Shown: positions 4,056 to 32,194 of the stretch, one piece after another
Layout: each line of letters begins with the position of its first letter
Position numbering within the stretch: position 1 is the stretch's first letter
DNA from: an uncultured Lentisphaerota bacterium
GTDB lineage: Bacteria > Verrucomicrobiota > Kiritimatiellia > RFP12 > UBA1067
Direction of reading: 5' to 3'
DNA length: 44,957 bases
Assembly (NCBI GenBank): GCA_900320225.1
Contig: ONRL01000010.1
Span: 1 to 44,957, forward strand
Program-made: the position numbers and the translations under genes
Notes under the pieces: model-generated
Databases searched by the model: none
What the model was told of the DNA's origin: nothing
What the model saw: the letters and a program-made list of their open reading frames with translations, nothing else

Positions 4056-4922
4056 GTGCGCAGCCTGTGGCGAATCGCGCAGACCGCGCTCTGCGAATGG
4101 GAGAACGCGCTCCGCAGCCGTCGCGCGCTCGTGCTGCTGCTGCTCTACCTTGCGGCGGCGGTGCTGTGCATGAACGGGACGATCTCCGTGCTCGGGAAGA
4201 TGGAAACCGAACTTGTGCGCGTGCTGCGTCTGCCGGATTCGGGCCAGGCGGGCGTCGTGTCCGAGACGCTGTGGAAGTCGAAGTCGTTCCGCAACATGAT
4301 CGCGGCGGGCGTGGACGACCGCCTCGTGTTCGAGGACATCTCGAAGCGCCATCCCGTGGAGCTTCTCTACGCCTGGTTCGCTTTCTTCTGCGCGCCGCTT
4401 CTGGTGGTGCTCGTGAGCGGCACGCGCGTGGCGGAGGATCTCCGCACGGGCGTGGCGCGCTACATGCTCGTGCGCACGTCGCGTCTTGAATGGTCGCTCG
4501 GCAAGTACGCCGGGCAGGCGCTCATGATCGCGTGCGCCCTTGCGGTGAGCGCCGTGGGGGCGTGGTGCGTGGCGCTTTACCGCCTGCCGGCGGCGACGGC
4601 CGGCCGCCTGTTCCTGCCGATGCTGGGCTGGGGCGCGAGCGCGTGGTTCTACTCGCTGGCGTGGCTCGGCCTCGCGCTCGGCCTCTCGCACCTCACGCGC
4701 TCCGCAATGCGCGCCACGGCGTTCGGCATCCTGGGAATCGGTGTGTTCGAGGTGCTGCCGCATTTCTTCCCCGAAGTCGAGGCGATCCTGCCCTCCGGCG
4801 CGCGGTTGGGTCTGTGGCGGACCTCCTTCACGCCGCAGGCCGTCGCGGTGTTTCACCTTGCGACGCTCGGGCTCGTGTATTTCATGGCCGGGGCCGCCGT
4901 TTTTGCCAGGAGGGACGCATGA
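4056..4922 (+). CDS. ABC-2 type transporter permease
   Basis: This is a 288-residue integral membrane protein. It has about six hydrophobic segments: ALVLLLLYLAAAVLC, WFAFFCAPLLVVLVSG, ALMIACALAVSAVGAW, a Leu/Trp-rich stretch, FGILGIGVFEVLPHFF, and a C-terminal LATLGLVYFMAGAAVF. The first loop is long and extracytoplasmic, as in ABC-2 permeases. The GTG start at 4056 sits behind a strong GAGGGGAG site. The stop overlaps the start of the ATPase gene by ATGA, which implies translational coupling and a permease-ATPase partnership. The substrate cannot be read from the sequence. Confidence 0.8.
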   Translation: MRSLWRIAQTALCEWENALRSRRALVLLLLYLAAAVLCMNGTISVLGKMETELVRVLRLPDSGQAGVVSETLWKSKSFRNMIAAGVDDRLVFEDISKRHPVELLYAWFAFFCAPLLVVLVSGTRVAEDLRTGVARYMLVRTSRLEWSLGKYAGQALMIACALAVSAVGAWCVALYRLPAATAGRLFLPMLGWGASAWFYSLAWLGLALGLSHLTRSAMRATAFGILGIGVFEVLPHFFPEVEAILPSGARLGLWRTSFTPQAVAVFHLATLGLVYFMAGAAVFARRDA

Positions 4923-15281: not shown

Positions 15282-16199
15282 TCACTTCCCGAACAGCGAC
15301 GCAGGGTACTCTCCGGCGTCCACGAGCGCGCGGATGGCGTCCGTCACGAACGGCTTGTCCTCGCGGTACGTGACGCCGAACCAGGCGGAGTCTGTGGGCA
15401 AGACCTCCACGGAGGCGGCGCCCTCGTGGATCATCTCGTCGACGACGAAGGGGATGTACCACTCGCTCTTCTCCTCGGCGCCGTGCTGGGCGAGCCAGGC
15501 GGGGAATCGCGCCTCGAGCGCGTCGAAGAGGGCGGGCGTGAAGCCCCAGAGGTTCATGGAGACGCGCTCGGCGCCGGTGAGCTTCACGGGGGCGGCGGGA
15601 TTCTCGCGGTTCTCCGCGCCCTCGGGCGTGCGTACGAGCTTCGTCATCTCCGTGACGCCGGCGAGGTGGCCTTCGGGAGTCACGTGGCAGATGCCGCGTG
15701 CGACGGAGCCGTAGTCGGAGAGGGTGAGGTGGAGTTTGTAGCCGACCATCGCGAAGCGGGGAGGGACGCGCTGTTGCGCGTCCGCGTTTCCCAGGAATTC
15801 GGCGAGGCGCGCGAAGGCGTCGCGGCCGTAGAAGTCGTCCGCGTTGATCGCGGCGAAGGGTTCGTGCACCGCGTGACGGGCCGCGCGGATCGCGTGGGCC
15901 GTGCCCCAGGGCTTCGTGCGCCCGGCGGGGACGGCGTAGGGGGCGGGGAGGTCGTGGATGTCCTGGAAGGCGTAGTCGACCGGCAGGAGCCCCTCGTACT
16001 TCGCGCCCACCTGGCGGCGGAAGACCTCCTCGATGTCCTTGCGGATGATGAACACGACCTTGCCGAAACCGGCGCGGTGCGCATCGAAGACGGAATAGTC
16101 GAGAATGGCCTCGCCCGAAGGCCCCACGGGATCGACCTGCTTGAGGCCGCCGTAGCGGGAGCCCATGCCGGCTGCAAGAACGACAAGCGTTGGTTTCAT
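15282..16199 (-). CDS. Sugar-phosphate nucleotidyltransferase-like protein with a REP-encoded insertion
   Basis: This 305-residue protein has a GT-A nucleotidyltransferase fold. VVLAAGMGSRYGGLKQ is the nucleotide-binding start, GPSGEAILDYSVFDA and FAAINADDFYG (metal Asp) follow, and later SMNLWGFTPALFDALE. It resembles GlmU/GalU-type enzymes that charge sugars with NTP; the sugar is unknown. Residues 139-147 (ADAQQRVPP) are encoded by a REP-like element (15759-15785) lying between EFLGN and FAMVGYKL, in a surface-loop position. AAAGGA precedes the ATG at 16199. It leads a likely operon with comF, HAD and perhaps the sigma factor. Confidence 0.88.
   Translation of the reverse strand: MKPTLVVLAAGMGSRYGGLKQVDPVGPSGEAILDYSVFDAHRAGFGKVVFIIRKDIEEVFRRQVGAKYEGLLPVDYAFQDIHDLPAPYAVPAGRTKPWGTAHAIRAARHAVHEPFAAINADDFYGRDAFARLAEFLGNADAQQRVPPRFAMVGYKLHLTLSDYGSVARGICHVTPEGHLAGVTEMTKLVRTPEGAENRENPAAPVKLTGAERVSMNLWGFTPALFDALEARFPAWLAQHGAEEKSEWYIPFVVDEMIHEGAASVEVLPTDSAWFGVTYREDKPFVTDAIRALVDAGEYPASLFGK
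15759..15785 (-). repeat. REP-like element inside the nucleotidyltransferase gene
   Basis: On the plus strand: GGGAGGG, ACGCGC, loop TGTT, GCGCGT, CCGC. It is the A-type arm with a changed loop. The gene reads it in frame from the minus strand as ADAQQRVPP, almost the same peptide (ADAQERVPP) that the GH106 gene makes from the same arm at two sites. Confidence 0.8.
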
Positions 16200-16233
16200 G
16201 TTCTCACTGGTCCTTTCGCGCATCCTGTATAGC

Positions 16234-16256
16234 AAAAAGCCCCCGCGCGGCGGAGG
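16234..16256 (-). terminator. Rho-independent terminator of tRNA-Gln
   Basis: On the minus strand CCTCCGC, loop CGC, GCGGGGG (one T-G wobble) is followed by CTTTTT. It lies 9 bases after the tRNA 3' end and ends its transcript before the nucleotidyltransferase gene. Confidence 0.75.
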
Positions 16257-16264
16257 TCTTGCAA

Positions 16265-16338
16265 TGGTTGCCTCATATGGACTCGAACCATAACAAGCAG
16301 ATTCAGAATCTGCGGTGCTACCATTACACCATGAGGCA
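16265..16338 (-). tRNA. tRNA-Gln (anticodon CUG), CCA encoded
   Basis: The 7-bp acceptor stem TGCCTCA/TGAGGCA, D-arm with GGTGTAATGGTAGCACC, anticodon stem GCAGA/TCTGC around loop TTCTGAA (anticodon CTG) and T-loop GGTTCGAGTCC make a full cloverleaf. The discriminator A is followed by an encoded CCA. Confidence 0.95.
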
Positions 16339-16359
16339 ACGGGGTGAAAAACGTCGCAT

Positions 16360-16388
16360 AGTATAGCAGATTCCCCCCGCGCGCGCAA
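16360..16388 (-). promoter_or_regulatory. Promoter of tRNA-Gln, TTGCGC-17-TATACT
   Basis: On the minus strand TTGCGC (16388-16383) and TATACT (16365-16360) have a 17-bp spacer. Transcription would start near 16353, about 15 bases before the mature tRNA. Confidence 0.75.
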
Positions 16389-16435
16389 GGGGGAAATTCC
16401 CAGAGCGCAGGTCGCGGCGCATCAGGACGTTCGCA

Positions 16436-20900: not shown

Positions 20901-23900
20901 ATGAAGCAGACAACCCTGATTCTCGCCGTCTGCGTTGGCGGCGCGGCGTGTGCCGTTGACATGGCGGCGTTTCGCGTGCCGGCGCGCGAACACCGTCCCG
21001 AGACGTGGTTCCACCTGATCGGCGGCAACGTGGCGAAAGGCGGTCTTGCGGCCGACCTCGACGCAGTGGCGTCGGCGGGGATTTCCGGCATCCAGCTCTT
21101 CCACGGACAGTTCGGCGGTCCGTGGCCGGGCGTCTCGCCGCAGATTCCCTGCCTGAGCGCGGACTGGGACGATCTCATCCGCTTCGCCGCCGACGGCTGC
21201 GCGGCGCGCGGACTCTCGTTCAAGATGCAGAACTGCCCCGGCTGGTCGATGAGCGGAGGCCCGTGGATCGCACCGTCCAACGCAATGCGCAATCTCACCT
21301 ACTCGCGCATGGACGTTGAGGCTGCGACAAGCGCGGCCCTCCCGGGTGCGGTGGTGGCGGGGAAAAAGGCTCAGCTGAAGCTTCCGGTTCCGGATTGGCA
21401 GATGGAGTCGCGCCTGAAAGGTGAAGATCTTGACTACCACGACCTCTTCGTGCTCGCGTTCCCCACGCCAATCGGTGACACGCCGGGATTCATGGAGACG
21501 AAGCCGGCGGAGCGTACGGACAAAGACGGCGTGCTGCGGCTTGTGTATCGCTTTGACACGCCGAGGGTGTTCCGTTCAGCGGAGTTGCCGTCGCCGCGTC
21601 AGATGAACCACGACTGGGCGTATGATCCCGGTGTGACGGTGACGATCCGTGGCGTTTCAGCTGAAGTGCCGCAGGGATGCTGGCAGGATAGCGTGCCGTT
21701 CACGATGGCGCTCGGCGAACTGCCGCCGTCTGCGGAATGGACAGTCGAGATCCAGCATAAACATCCGGTGAACATCCCGTTCGTGCGGTTCCGTACGGGC
21801 ACGCGCCTCCATAACTGGGAGGGCAAGGCCGGTTGGGTGCTGCGCGGAATGGGAGGGTCGCGCTCCTGCGCGACCGCCGCCGAGACGGCGGCTCTCCATG
21901 CGGACGCGCAGGAGCGCGTCCCTCCCGCGTGTTGCATCTCCGGCGATGCGGTGTTGGATCTGACGGACAATTTCAAGGACGGTACGCTCGAATGGGCTCC
22001 CCCGGCGGGGAAGTGGACGATCCTCCGCATCGGCCACGTGAACAACGGCACGCGCAACGGCCCCGCGCCGAAGGAGGCGACGGGCTGGGAGTGCAACAAG
22101 ATGGACCGCGCCGGCATCGACGCGCACTTCGCTGCCTACATCGGACGCCTCGCGAAGGGACCGCTCACCGGCGGCAAGCTGAAGGGATTCGTGGTGGACA
22201 GCTGGGAGTGCCGTCGCCAGACCTGGACGCGCTCGCTGGAATCCGATTTCCGCACGGCGCGCGGCTACGACTTCCGCAAGAAACTGCCGGCGGTGTTCGG
22301 CTGGGTGATCGACTCGCCGGAGAAAACGGAGGACTTCCTGCGCGACTGGCGCCAGACGCTCGGCGAGCTGGTGGAGAAGAACTACTACGCGCGCATGGAC
22401 GAGCTGGCGCGCACGTACGGCATGACGGCGCAGTACGAGACGGCCTTTGGCGACGTGTTGCCGGGAGACTTGATGGCGTTCTGGAAGTACTGCGACACGC
22501 CCATGTGCGAATTCTGGTTTCCACGCGCCGAGTCGAGCGTGGGGCAGGACGACTTCAAGCCGATCATCCCCTGTGCGTCGGCGGCACACGTGTACGGAAA
22601 GGGGCGCGTGGCGGCCGAAGCCTGCACGTCGATGCGCCTCAAGTGGGACGAGGACTTCAAGAACCTGAAGGGAACGATCAACCACGCGTTCGCGCGCGGC
22701 GTGACGCACCTCGTGTTCCACACGTACACGCACAATCCACGCACGGACTGGTTGCCTCCGGGGTCGAGCTTCGGCCACTGCATCGGCACGCCGTTCATTC
22801 GCGGGCAGGCCTGGTGGAAGTACATGCCGGAGTTCACGAAGTGGGTGGCGCGCTGCGAGACGCTGCTTGAGGCGGGCAAGCCCGTGAACGACATCCTGTG
22901 GTATCTCGGCGAGGAGGTCGGCCACAAGCCGAGCGAGCGTAGCCCGTTCCCGCCCGGCTACAAGTACGATTACGTGAACCGCGATGCGCTGCTGAGCCGC
23001 ATCTCCGTGAAGGACGGACTCTTCACGACGCCGGAGGGCGTGACGTGGAAGGTGCTGTGGGTGCCGTCGCGGAAGTGGATGTCCGATGCCGTGAAGGCGA
23101 AGCTGTCCGATTTCGCGAAATGCGGCGGCAGGGTTGTTTACGGCGGTGTCAACGAGGTGGTGGAGGGAATTGCGCCCGACGTGACGTGTACGGGCGAAGG
23201 ACTGTCCGACTGGCGGAAGGGGGAGCGTCCGGTCGAGTGGCTGCACCGGCGCGATGCGACGGCGGACTGGTACTTCGTGTCGCCGAACGGCATGGATGCG
23301 TATTCGGGCGAGGTGACGTTCCGCATGGAAGGCGACGTCACCGTGTGGGATCCCGTGACGGGCACGTGTTCCGTGCCGGAGATCCCGCATGTGGAAGAGG
23401 GCAGCACCACGGTGAAGCTCGACCTCGCGTCCGCGGAGAGCGTGTTCGTGGTGTTCAGCCGGGGAGGGTCGCAGCTTGCTGCGACCGCAACGGGAGGGTC
23501 GCGCTCCTGCGCGACCGCGGACGCGCAGGAGCGCGTCCCTCCCATTCCATTGCGCGACTGGACTCTTTCCTTCCCGGTAGGGTGGGGCGCGCCGGCTTCG
23601 ATCGAGCTGGAGAAGCTCGCCTCGTGGACCGACCTGCCGCTGGGCGAGGAGGGACGCCACTTCTCGGGCACGGCCACGTACACGACCACTTTCACCTGTG
23701 CGGACGCGCAGGAGCGCGTCCCTCCCGCCGGAAAGGCCGGCGTACCGCTGACGCTCGACCTTGGCGAAGTGGAGACCGTCGCCGAGGTGTTCGTGAACGG
23801 CAGGAAGGCGCGCACGCTCTGGGCGCCGCCGTACCGATGCGAGATCGGCGATCTCGTGAAAGACGGGGAGAATGAACTGCGCGTGGACGTGACTACCACA

Positions 23901-24032
23901 TGGTTCAACCGCCTTGCGTACGACGCGGGACTGCCCGAGAAGGACCGCAAGACGTGGACGATCGCGGGTCCGAAGAAGGGTACGCCGCCGAAGCCCGCGG
24001 GTCTGCTTGGGCCCGTGAAATTGACGCGCTGA
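20901..24032 (+). CDS. GH106-type alpha-L-rhamnosidase-like glycoside hydrolase carrying REP-encoded insertions
   Basis: This is a 1043-residue exported protein (signal MKQTTLILAVCVGGAACA). It matches family GH106: an N-terminal ETWFHLIGGNVAKGGLAADL barrel strand, GISGIQLFHGQFG, GLSFKMQNCPGWSMSGGPWI and AMRNLTYSRM. A catalytic region has FVVDSWECRRQTWT, ARTYGMTAQYETAFGD and VAAEACTSM. The C-terminal beta-sandwich has LTLDLGEVETVAEVFVNGRKART and GENELRVDVTTTWFNRL. The family cleaves alpha-L-rhamnose from pectin and other polymers in the periplasm. Three sites carry in-frame REP-like insertions (residues 317-342, 854-881 and 934-942), encoding GGSRSCAT, GGSQLAAT and ADAQERVPP, probably in loops. 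Whether activity survives is unknown. Confidence 0.85.
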   Translation: MKQTTLILAVCVGGAACAVDMAAFRVPAREHRPETWFHLIGGNVAKGGLAADLDAVASAGISGIQLFHGQFGGPWPGVSPQIPCLSADWDDLIRFAADGCAARGLSFKMQNCPGWSMSGGPWIAPSNAMRNLTYSRMDVEAATSAALPGAVVAGKKAQLKLPVPDWQMESRLKGEDLDYHDLFVLAFPTPIGDTPGFMETKPAERTDKDGVLRLVYRFDTPRVFRSAELPSPRQMNHDWAYDPGVTVTIRGVSAEVPQGCWQDSVPFTMALGELPPSAEWTVEIQHKHPVNIPFVRFRTGTRLHNWEGKAGWVLRGMGGSRSCATAAETAALHADAQERVPPACCISGDAVLDLTDNFKDGTLEWAPPAGKWTILRIGHVNNGTRNGPAPKEATGWECNKMDRAGIDAHFAAYIGRLAKGPLTGGKLKGFVVDSWECRRQTWTRSLESDFRTARGYDFRKKLPAVFGWVIDSPEKTEDFLRDWRQTLGELVEKNYYARMDELARTYGMTAQYETAFGDVLPGDLMAFWKYCDTPMCEFWFPRAESSVGQDDFKPIIPCASAAHVYGKGRVAAEACTSMRLKWDEDFKNLKGTINHAFARGVTHLVFHTYTHNPRTDWLPPGSSFGHCIGTPFIRGQAWWKYMPEFTKWVARCETLLEAGKPVNDILWYLGEEVGHKPSERSPFPPGYKYDYVNRDALLSRISVKDGLFTTPEGVTWKVLWVPSRKWMSDAVKAKLSDFAKCGGRVVYGGVNEVVEGIAPDVTCTGEGLSDWRKGERPVEWLHRRDATADWYFVSPNGMDAYSGEVTFRMEGDVTVWDPVTGTCSVPEIPHVEEGSTTVKLDLASAESVFVVFSRGGSQLAATATGGSRSCATADAQERVPPIPLRDWTLSFPVGWGAPASIELEKLASWTDLPLGEEGRHFSGTATYTTTFTCADAQERVPPAGKAGVPLTLDLGEVETVAEVFVNGRKARTLWAPPYRCEIGDLVKDGENELRVDVTTTWFNRLAYDAGLPEKDRKTWTIAGPKKGTPPKPAGLLGPVKLTR
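21851..21926. repeat. REP doublet (REPIN-like, 76 bp) inside the GH106 gene
   Basis: Left arm: GGGAGGG, TCGCGC, loop TCCT, GCGCGA, CCGC. Middle: CCGCCG-AGA-CGGCGG hairpin. Right arm is an inverted A-type unit: GCGG, ACGCGC, loop AGGA, GCGCGT, CCCTCCC. The gene reads it without a stop as GGSRSCATAAETAALHAD followed by AQERVPP. Confidence 0.85.
23462..23488. repeat. REP-like single unit, AG-CTTG-CT variant, inside the GH106 gene
   Basis: GGGAGGG, TCGCAG, loop CTTG, CTGCGA, CCGC. Compared with the common unit both sides of the stem top are changed together. It lies three bases before the doublet at 23492 and encodes GGSQLAAT. Confidence 0.8.
23492..23543. repeat. REP doublet without middle segment inside the GH106 gene
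   Basis: A T-type left arm (GGGAGGG, TCGCGC, TCCT, GCGCGA, CC) joins directly to an inverted A-type right arm (GCGG, ACGCGC, AGGA, GCGCGT, CCCTCCC), 52 bp in all. It is read as GGSRSCATADAQERVPP. Confidence 0.85.
23700..23726. repeat. REP-like single unit (inverted A-type) inside the GH106 gene
   Basis: GCGG, ACGCGC, loop AGGA, GCGCGT, CCCTCCC, identical to the right arms at 21900 and 23517. It is read as ADAQERVPP between TTTFTC and AGKAGVPLTLDL of the C-terminal beta domain. Confidence 0.85.
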
Positions 24033-30938: not shown

Positions 30939-32161
30939 ACAGACGTGAATTCATGGCCGGCATCACCGCGCTGGCCGCAGCCAGCACTCACGGGAGGGGC
31001 GCAACTTGTTGCGACCGCAAGGCTGCCGCGACCGGCATGCCCGCCATCCAGCCCACCCGCTTCAAGCCGATCGAGATCCCCGGCCTTGCGCCGCGCCCCG
31101 ACTTCTGGAAGGTGCGCCCGCAGGAGATCATGGACCTCTGCGCCCGCGCCACGAAGTGCTCGCGCAAGGAGGTGATCGCGCACACTCCGCTCGGTTATCC
31201 CGTCTACGCGCTCTTCTACGGCGACTTCAACGACGCGCCGCCGCAGACGAACTGGTCAGCCGGCTCGTCGTCCACCACCTGGAAGAACTACATGGGCAAC
31301 CCGCCCCCCGCGAAACAGACATTCCTCTTCATGGCCGGCATCCACGGCGCAGAGCCCGAGTGCGTGGCCGGCGCGATGAATTTGATCCAGCTGCTCGAGA
31401 CAGGCGCGGACTTCCGCGGCCATGCCAACCCCGCACTCGTGGACCTGATCTCCAAGTACCGCTTCATCGTGGTGCCGTGCGCGAACATGGACGGGCGCGC
31501 CATCTCGCCCGATCACTTGCACGGTCTTGCGTGGCAGGACTTCCGCGCCGCCTCGCAGGGCACGTGGAAGGACGGTTCGCTCGTCGGCTGGCGCGGCAGC
31601 AAGTCGTGGTTCCCGCTTCCGCTCGACAAGGTGTCGTACCCCGGCGGCTATCCGAACGCCGACGGCTTCAACATCATGCACGACGCCGCGCCGGGCCACA
31701 TCCGCACGGCGGAGGCGCGCGGCCTCCTGCAGCTCGCGGAACGCTGGCGCGTGGACGCCATCCTGAACGGCCACTCCTACGAGTACGCTCCCACGATCCT
31801 CACGCCGGGGGCAATCGACGCGCCGGACAAGGTGGTGCGCGCGAACGCGATTTCGGACCGCATCAACGCCGCCATCCATGCGGCCGGCCTCAACCCGAAC
31901 AAACCCAAGGCGAACCGCACGCCGCGCGGCACGATCAACCTCAACACCGTGCTGGCCCTCGCCTCGGGCGCGATCACGCTCACGCTCGAGTGTTCCGTGT
32001 CGTTCGACCGGCCCATCAAGCCGCCGAAGGTCCAACCCACGCGCTCCTACACGTTCGACGAACTGATGGAACCGGTGTTCGTGGCGCTGCGCGAATATCT
32101 TTCGGACGGCCTTGAGCAGCCGTTCCTTGTCCGCGGCGACGACCGCGTCTACACCGACTGA
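30935..32161 (+). CDS. Tat-exported M14-type zinc carboxypeptidase with REP-encoded insertion
   Basis: This is a 408-residue protein. MNRREFMAGITALAAAS is a twin-arginine signal. The M14 fold has MAGIHGAEPE with zinc ligands His137 and Glu140, VPCANMDGRAI (MDGR substrate-binding region), and ILNGHSYEYAPTILTPG with the third ligand His. Family members remove C-terminal residues from peptides or act on peptidoglycan peptides. Residues 20-28 (GRGATCCDR) come from a REP-like element inserted just after the signal peptide, where extra residues would be tolerated. AAAGGA precedes the ATG, which overlaps the previous stop. Confidence 0.88.
   Translation: MNRREFMAGITALAAASTHGRGATCCDRKAAATGMPAIQPTRFKPIEIPGLAPRPDFWKVRPQEIMDLCARATKCSRKEVIAHTPLGYPVYALFYGDFNDAPPQTNWSAGSSSTTWKNYMGNPPPAKQTFLFMAGIHGAEPECVAGAMNLIQLLETGADFRGHANPALVDLISKYRFIVVPCANMDGRAISPDHLHGLAWQDFRAASQGTWKDGSLVGWRGSKSWFPLPLDKVSYPGGYPNADGFNIMHDAAPGHIRTAEARGLLQLAERWRVDAILNGHSYEYAPTILTPGAIDAPDKVVRANAISDRINAAIHAAGLNPNKPKANRTPRGTINLNTVLALASGAITLTLECSVSFDRPIKPPKVQPTRSYTFDELMEPVFVALREYLSDGLEQPFLVRGDDRVYTD
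30992..31018. repeat. REP-like unit, AA-CTTG-TT variant, inside the M14 gene
   Basis: GGGAGGG, GCGCAA, loop CTTG, TTGCGA, CCGC. The stem top AA/TT is a paired change relative to AG/CT at 23462. The outer base shows a G where T is expected. It is read in frame right after the Tat signal. Confidence 0.75.
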
Positions 32162-32168
32162 CCACAGC

Positions 32169-32194
32169 GGGAGGGTCGCGCTCCTGCGCGACCG
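32169..32194. repeat. REP-like unit between convergent stop codons
   Basis: GGGAGGG, TCGCGC, loop TCCT, GCGCGA, CCG. It starts 7 bases after the M14 stop and ends one base before the stop of the convergent hydrolase gene (32195), so it fills the whole intergenic gap and could act as a bidirectional terminator or mRNA-end stabiliser. Confidence 0.85.

Follow-up and report, generated by a model that had tools for sequence, protein, structure and literature searches.

In-frame REP-type palindromes in a GH106-type gene and other genes of rumen and gut Kiritimatiellae, and a candidate RAYT transposase

The DNA analysed here comes from a rumen/gut Kiritimatiellae bacterium, whose genome (G000) comprises 5.2 Mb in 351 contigs. 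Its named relatives, as judged by the GH106 gene, include ruminant-gut Kiritimatiellae MAGs. The window, which is the whole stretch of 44,957 nucleotides under study, contains a gene for a GH106-type alpha-L-rhamnosidase-like protein and, inside it, six palindromes in three clusters, all in frame and with zero stops across the six copies. Three more copies of the same unit lie elsewhere in the window. The features are as follows.

20901..24032, plus strand: GH106-type alpha-L-rhamnosidase-like host gene, 1043 aa (PF17132, 4.4e-135), open throughout
21851..21875, plus strand: REP unit of site 1, read GGSRSCAT
21876..21892, no strand assigned: nested palindrome GCCGCCGAGACGGCGGC, spacer of the site-1 doublet
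21902..21926, minus strand: REP unit of site 1, inverted, read (A)DAQERVPP
21851-21926: site-1 inverted doublet, REPIN-like, 76 bp
23462..23486, plus strand: REP unit of site 2, singlet with stem variant AGCTTGCT, read GGSQLAAT
23492..23516, plus strand: REP unit of site 2, read GGSRSCAT
23519..23543, minus strand: REP unit of site 2, inverted, read (A)DAQERVPP
23492-23543: site-2 inverted doublet, 52 bp, 3′ of the singlet at 23462-23486
23702..23726, minus strand: REP unit of site 3, single and inverted, a net gain of 33 bp relative to empty orthologues
15759..15783, plus strand: unit copy, read DAQQRVPP in the minus-strand open frame 15285-16421
30992..31016, plus strand: unit copy, with no frame continuing on both flanks
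32169..32193, plus strand: unit copy; the minus-strand frame on both flanks is interrupted by a stop codon

The original prediction had described three in-frame insertion clusters in this gene that were read through without a stop, and its coordinates proved exact. The peptides were also as named: GGSRSCAT twice, GGSQLAAT once and ADAQERVPP three times. A search with a 27-mer of the unit, allowing up to 3 mismatches, gave 7 matches in the window and 0 in 100 shuffles. The minus-strand open frame around the copy at 15759..15783 had no Pfam match, and the copy at 32169..32193, judged by its flanking frames, is probably at a gene end. The genome as a whole is rich in rhamnosidase-like genes, with 27 stretches matching PF17132 (GH106).

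The repeated unit has the form (C)GGGAG-GGNCGCGCTCCTGCGCGNCC-(G), with the core (C)GGGAG GG N CGC GCTCCTGC GCG N CC(G). It consists of the tag GGGAG, an 8-bp covarying stem and a 4-nt loop, about 27 nt in all (25-27 nt). The flanking C at −1 and G at +26 were conserved, which suggests a 27-nt unit. Strict matches numbered 524 in G000 as compared with 0 for a reversed-pattern control; the GGGAG head was built into the search pattern behind these copies, and all copy counts given here are whole-genome pattern counts. Elsewhere in the genus the strict copies ranged from 2 to 413, and G023, which belongs to another genus, had 397. The four most copy-rich genomes held 524, 413, 397 and 357 copies, and many members of the family and order had zero strict copies by the same counts. 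Stem positions 8/23 were occupied by TA in 55 copies, AT in 42 and CG in 23. Stem pairing was 0.90 versus 0.44 in shuffles, and positions 8/23 and 13/18 were paired above each of 500 shuffles. The inner stem was GC-rich in some copies and AT-rich in others, both arms changing together. The original prediction also stated that the unit has no stop codon in any of the six frames; this held for 127 of 134 sampled 27-nt units, and does not extend to every stem variant.

Copies occurred as singlets, which were frequent, as inverted doublets and as larger clusters. Palindromic doublet spacers of the site-1 type were found at nine places, five in G000, one in G003 and three in G004. We conclude that the unit is a REP-type element of the REP/REPIN family. 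Its 25–27 nt and the 524 strict copies in G000 agree with the 20–40 nt and more than 100 copies per genome that are expected of REPs, its stem is kept by compensatory change, and a RAYT gene accompanied by inverted flanking copies was found, with copies on both sides in G000 (contig C293), G003, G004 and G009. The terminal tetranucleotide GTAG (or CGTC) of REPs is absent and GGAG stands in the place of GTAG. Because the tag differs in this way, the unit was placed in neither the GTAG nor the CGTC superfamily of PMC3733652. The mostly extragenic location that marks REPs was not found in G000; it was found only in G023.

Comparison with orthologues indicates that the GH106 palindromes are true insertions. 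In the alignment, each of the three sites was filled with a palindrome in the orthologues of two sister species, G003 (88% identity) and G004 (89%). No GGGAGGG unit was found in the aligned GH106 homologues of G001, RGIG6330, RGIG9083 or RUG12478. The aligned distant Bacteroidota homologues lacked it as well. Site 3 was a clean 33-bp indel, missing from G005, G014, G001 and others. Sites 1 and 2 of G005 were filled by other palindromes, GAACGGGCGTCTCGCCCGTTC and ACAACGGGCGAGACGCCCGTTGT, and site 2 of G014 held a remnant-like palindrome; thus two of the three GH106 sites have been used by different palindromes. It is extremely improbable that the inserts are artefacts of assembly or binning, a doubt that arises since the compared genomes are largely MAGs. 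The identical positions are filled in G003 and G004, which come from other assemblies and have in part their own stem variants, and the copies are in frame.

The AlphaFold model of the GH106 protein had a mean pLDDT of 88 and a pTM of 0.90, and its best fold matches were 6q2f and 5mqm (BT_0986). The pLDDT fell below 50 only at residues 1-16, 319-328, 860-878 and 935-946, which correspond to the N-terminus and the three insert sites. All three inserts were placed in loops or linkers of the predicted model, as had been expected from the sequence. The low pLDDT agrees with this placement, though it is expected for segments missing from most alignment rows and so is no proof of disorder.

We then considered copies in genes at large. 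The intragenic figures for G000 refer to a 643-kb sample with 91 clusters. The sampled stretches were chosen by match-listing order, length, or GH106/RAYT content, and coding flanks were called with a codon model for which long open frames served as training set. In G000, 34 of the 91 clusters lay in an unbroken frame between two confidently coding flanks (32 or 34 with slightly different training sets of the codon model). Only 3 of the 91 had coding sequence on both sides but in different frames; random positions give about the same rate, and there it comes from gene junctions. With G023 left aside, the remaining five genomes together had 73 clusters in frame and 5 clusters with two coding flanks out of frame, so that frame keeping was near-complete. 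The genic share of clusters in G000 was 37% as compared with 43–46% for random positions (p = 0.13, with a wide error on the depletion estimate), and genes are therefore not significantly avoided by its copies. The corresponding shares were 33% versus 36% in G005, 44% versus 43% in G009 and 33% versus 36% in G016; the G003 sample had just 9 clusters. In contrast to G000, G005, G009 and G016, G023 strongly avoids genes: its genic share was 2% versus 39–40% for random positions (p = 9e-8), the element being almost wholly extragenic (L325-L342).

The intragenic copies were also biased in codon register. In G000, 67 of 83 shared one register (chi-square p = 5e-17, copies of the same cluster being non-independent), which yields GGxxxxxx on one strand and xAxxxxPP on the other. 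The explanation given earlier for the threefold ADAQERVPP, that each copy is read in the same frame, thus extends to the genome sample. One register held 18 of 22 copies in G009 and 10 of 15 in G016, and no register bias was seen in G005 (5 of 18). The spacing of neighbouring intragenic copies was a multiple of three in 30 of 33 cases.

Twenty-eight host frames were listed in the G000 sample. They include proS (L208), ksgA (L168), a POR beta-gamma protein (L199), an FHA-T2SSE ATPase (L207) and several glycoside hydrolases. By our own reading of the Pfam coordinates, the mapped inserts were mostly outside or between domains, and in a LacZ-type host (L223) the insert was at the border of two domains. 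About seven inserts fell within a domain envelope, e.g. those of KsgA, a PFL-like protein (L211) and GH20b (L219). The original prediction that a copy of suitable length is tolerated anywhere in a gene was too strong, as the position of most inserts relative to Pfam domains, the dominance of one register and the filling of identical sites with different palindromes in different species all run counter to it.

The linker of ProS, which joins the catalytic core to the editing domain, was wholly divergent among species whose ProS proteins are 91–97% identical. G000 has a doublet there and G003 a doublet whose stems are different; G009 and G011 have a singlet of yet another variant, the unit in G006 is of the G006 type, and G013 and G004 carry other repeats. 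In G005 the linker contained a different palindrome, which is related to the site-1 spacer of the GH106 gene. The GGGAG units in this linker started at an identical nucleotide offset in G000, G003, G009, G011 and G006. This may represent either one old insertion followed by stem switching or the reuse of one site. The proS loci L433-L445 and L450 give a view of a hypervariable linker with different repeat families.

A candidate transposase was identified elsewhere in the genome.

L317:3266-4174 (G000:C293): RAYT, 303 aa

Its NF047646 score was 67.8 bits (E 9e-19), below the NCBIfam cut-off of 80; a member of the same clade in G006 scored 80.4 bits, and no Pfam match was found for the G000 protein. 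The HUH motif PDHIHFF and a downstream tyrosine region, KWEYVRNNP, could be read in its sequence, from which catalysis is predicted only. Nine unit copies flank the gene, six before the HUH domain and three just downstream, and four more are in frame inside it, between PDHIHFF and KWEYVRNNP. The six leading units are in frame with the HUH domain and, should translation begin at the first ATG, would form an N-terminal extension. The RAYT genes of G002, G003, G004, G006 and G023 also contained units, while that of G009 had none inside; in G002, G006 and G023 copies were found beside or inside the gene. Carriers of the clade were located by the NF047646 profile plus protein search. All of the four most copy-rich genomes carry it (E <= 1e-48), whereas in G005 and G016, which have intragenic copies, no RAYT of this clade was found at E <= 1e-8. 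The stem variant at the RAYT was the commonest among sampled copies in G000 and G009 and matched in the small G003 sample; in G023 the commonest variant differed from that at its RAYT. The C293 RAYT is likely to be the cognate transposase of the unit.

Three RAYT-like Y1_Tnp (PF01797) genes of G000 (L023, L024, L025) were set aside as cognate candidates, as the unit was not nearby, except for one copy about 1.35 kb from L024. G000 has 16 RAYT-like NF047646 match stretches (L275, L024 and others), some of them apparently amid other repeat families. The clade was flanked by different stem variants in G009 (L322), G006 (L324) and G002 (L323), and co-evolution of transposase and hairpin is a possible reading of such differences. 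The gene 3′ of the RAYT (L317:about 4195-4340), which has a start like that of an FAD-dependent oxidoreductase, apparently contains three units in its predicted N-terminal signal region.

The inserts are very probably REP/REPIN copies that were spread by the RAYT, a putative Y1/HUH single-strand transposase, and kept in frame as linkers. By analogy with TnpA-REP (PMC8266576), the RAYT would act on the single-stranded hairpin and would paste units or doublets at many places. Copies with a frame-keeping length and the Gly/Ser/Pro-rich register would persist where the protein accepts a linker. Later, re-insertion or conversion between copies could put a different stem variant in place of a palindrome, and such swapping is the proposed reason why orthologous linkers differ between species. 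Expansion through RAYT and hairpin is supported by the copy number, the covarying stem, the inverted doublets, the RAYT locus flanked by and containing the units, the presence/absence of inserts between species, the near-complete frame keeping and the strong register bias. Counting against it are the tag GGGAG in place of canonical GTAG, the NF047646 score of the G000 RAYT below the cut-off, the variant mismatch in G023, the copies of G005 and G016 without a RAYT of the clade, and the missing register bias of G005.

If selection acted alone, genic copies would be expected at no more than about a third of the density at random positions, but they were hardly thinned in four genomes. Either insertion favours one phase and a 3n length, or most of the intergenic copies are also removed, or copies spread by conversion at sites proven tolerable. 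The first of these leads to the reading that insertion is frame-aware in effect, a 3n unit entering a short target motif mostly in one codon phase, with no selective removal needed. The insignificant depletion in G000, the sharing of one register by copies in both orientations and the conserved bases that point to a 27-nt unit agree with it. However, no target motif was found beyond single bases, G005 shows no register bias, distances in steps of three are also explained by selection, and the depletion estimate has a wide error; we regard this reading as unlikely. That palindromes have long resided in permissive linkers, and that the present units arose for the most part through conversion or recombination among dispersed copies and not by new insertion, is somewhat doubtful. 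GH106 site 2 and the ProS linker, where close orthologues have different stem variants with both arms changed, and the same starting nucleotide in several species would fit conversion, but the clean presence/absence at site 3, the range of 2 to 524 strict copies within the genus and the unrelated repeats in the ProS linker of other species do not.

It is very unlikely that the peptides have a selected function, such as a binding, anchoring or solubility tag common to many enzymes. The same peptides do occur in glycoside hydrolases, oxidoreductases, ProS, KsgA and others, but these hosts, cytosolic enzymes and glycoside hydrolases, have nothing evident in common, and sister species freely replace the peptide. 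Most likely the inserted peptides are neutral linkers with no selected function. Beyond the preferred reading of RAYT-spread copies kept in frame, we tentatively suggest, while holding it rather improbable, that a RAYT/REPIN lineage has shifted its niche into coding sequence. With 3n insertions, a preferred codon register and ready-made flexible linkers, it would no longer avoid genes and would keep supplying linker variation to essential and secreted enzymes and also to its own transposase.

With filled and empty sites in close species and hundreds of copies, the system is a natural experiment on the origin of new protein segments. Given a candidate transposase and a gene-avoiding relative, frame keeping by selection as opposed to insertion mechanism is now directly testable. 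In the limited literature searched, nothing was found that joins 'repetitive extragenic palindromic' with Kiritimatiell-, and we did not find described this GGGAG family, its RAYT whose own frame contains units, the absence of gene avoidance beside a gene-avoiding relative, or the register bias.

REP elements and BIMEs with their RAYT (TnpA-REP) transposases have been reported previously (PMC2817692, PMC8266576). The Kiritimatiellae unit resembles them in being a short palindrome with a fixed 5′ tag, in its hundreds of copies with alternating orientations and in its RAYT flanked by inverted copies. It differs from them in its tag, GGGAG rather than GTAG, and in that the genes of G000 show no significant depletion of copies and the RAYT's own frame contains some of them. 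REPINs are inverted REP doublets that act as the mobile unit and have been described for extragenic space (PMC3116915). The Kiritimatiellae doublets are likewise inverted and some have a recurring spacer, but many of them lie in coding sequence, single units are frequent too, and the spacer is sometimes palindromic.

Rickettsia palindromic elements (RPEs), the classic example of intragenic palindromes, are in-frame palindromes in unrelated genes that were reported to be compatible with the protein fold (reviewed in PMC10969869). In-frame insertion in unrelated genes is shared by the Kiritimatiellae unit, but RPEs are described as about 150 bp long, as compared with 25–27 nt. The Kiritimatiellae unit has a candidate RAYT. 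For RPEs we know of no RAYT.

Intragenic REPs of the GTAG and CGTC types were reported to be most numerous in Opitutus terrae (Verrucomicrobia), which has most of the GTAG-type cases, and in Rickettsia conorii (PMC3733652). Most REPs in that study were intergenic; the intragenic REPs and dimers, sometimes two per gene, encode 20–30 aa. Those cases are similar to ours in that REPs or dimers lie inside ORFs, and one host, Opitutus terrae, is of the same phylum. The Kiritimatiellae unit differs in its tag and family, and here a presence/absence comparison, a register bias and a gene-avoiding relative are added. Intragenic REPs, doublets included, were thus already known, and the Kiritimatiellae case is an unusually pervasive one.
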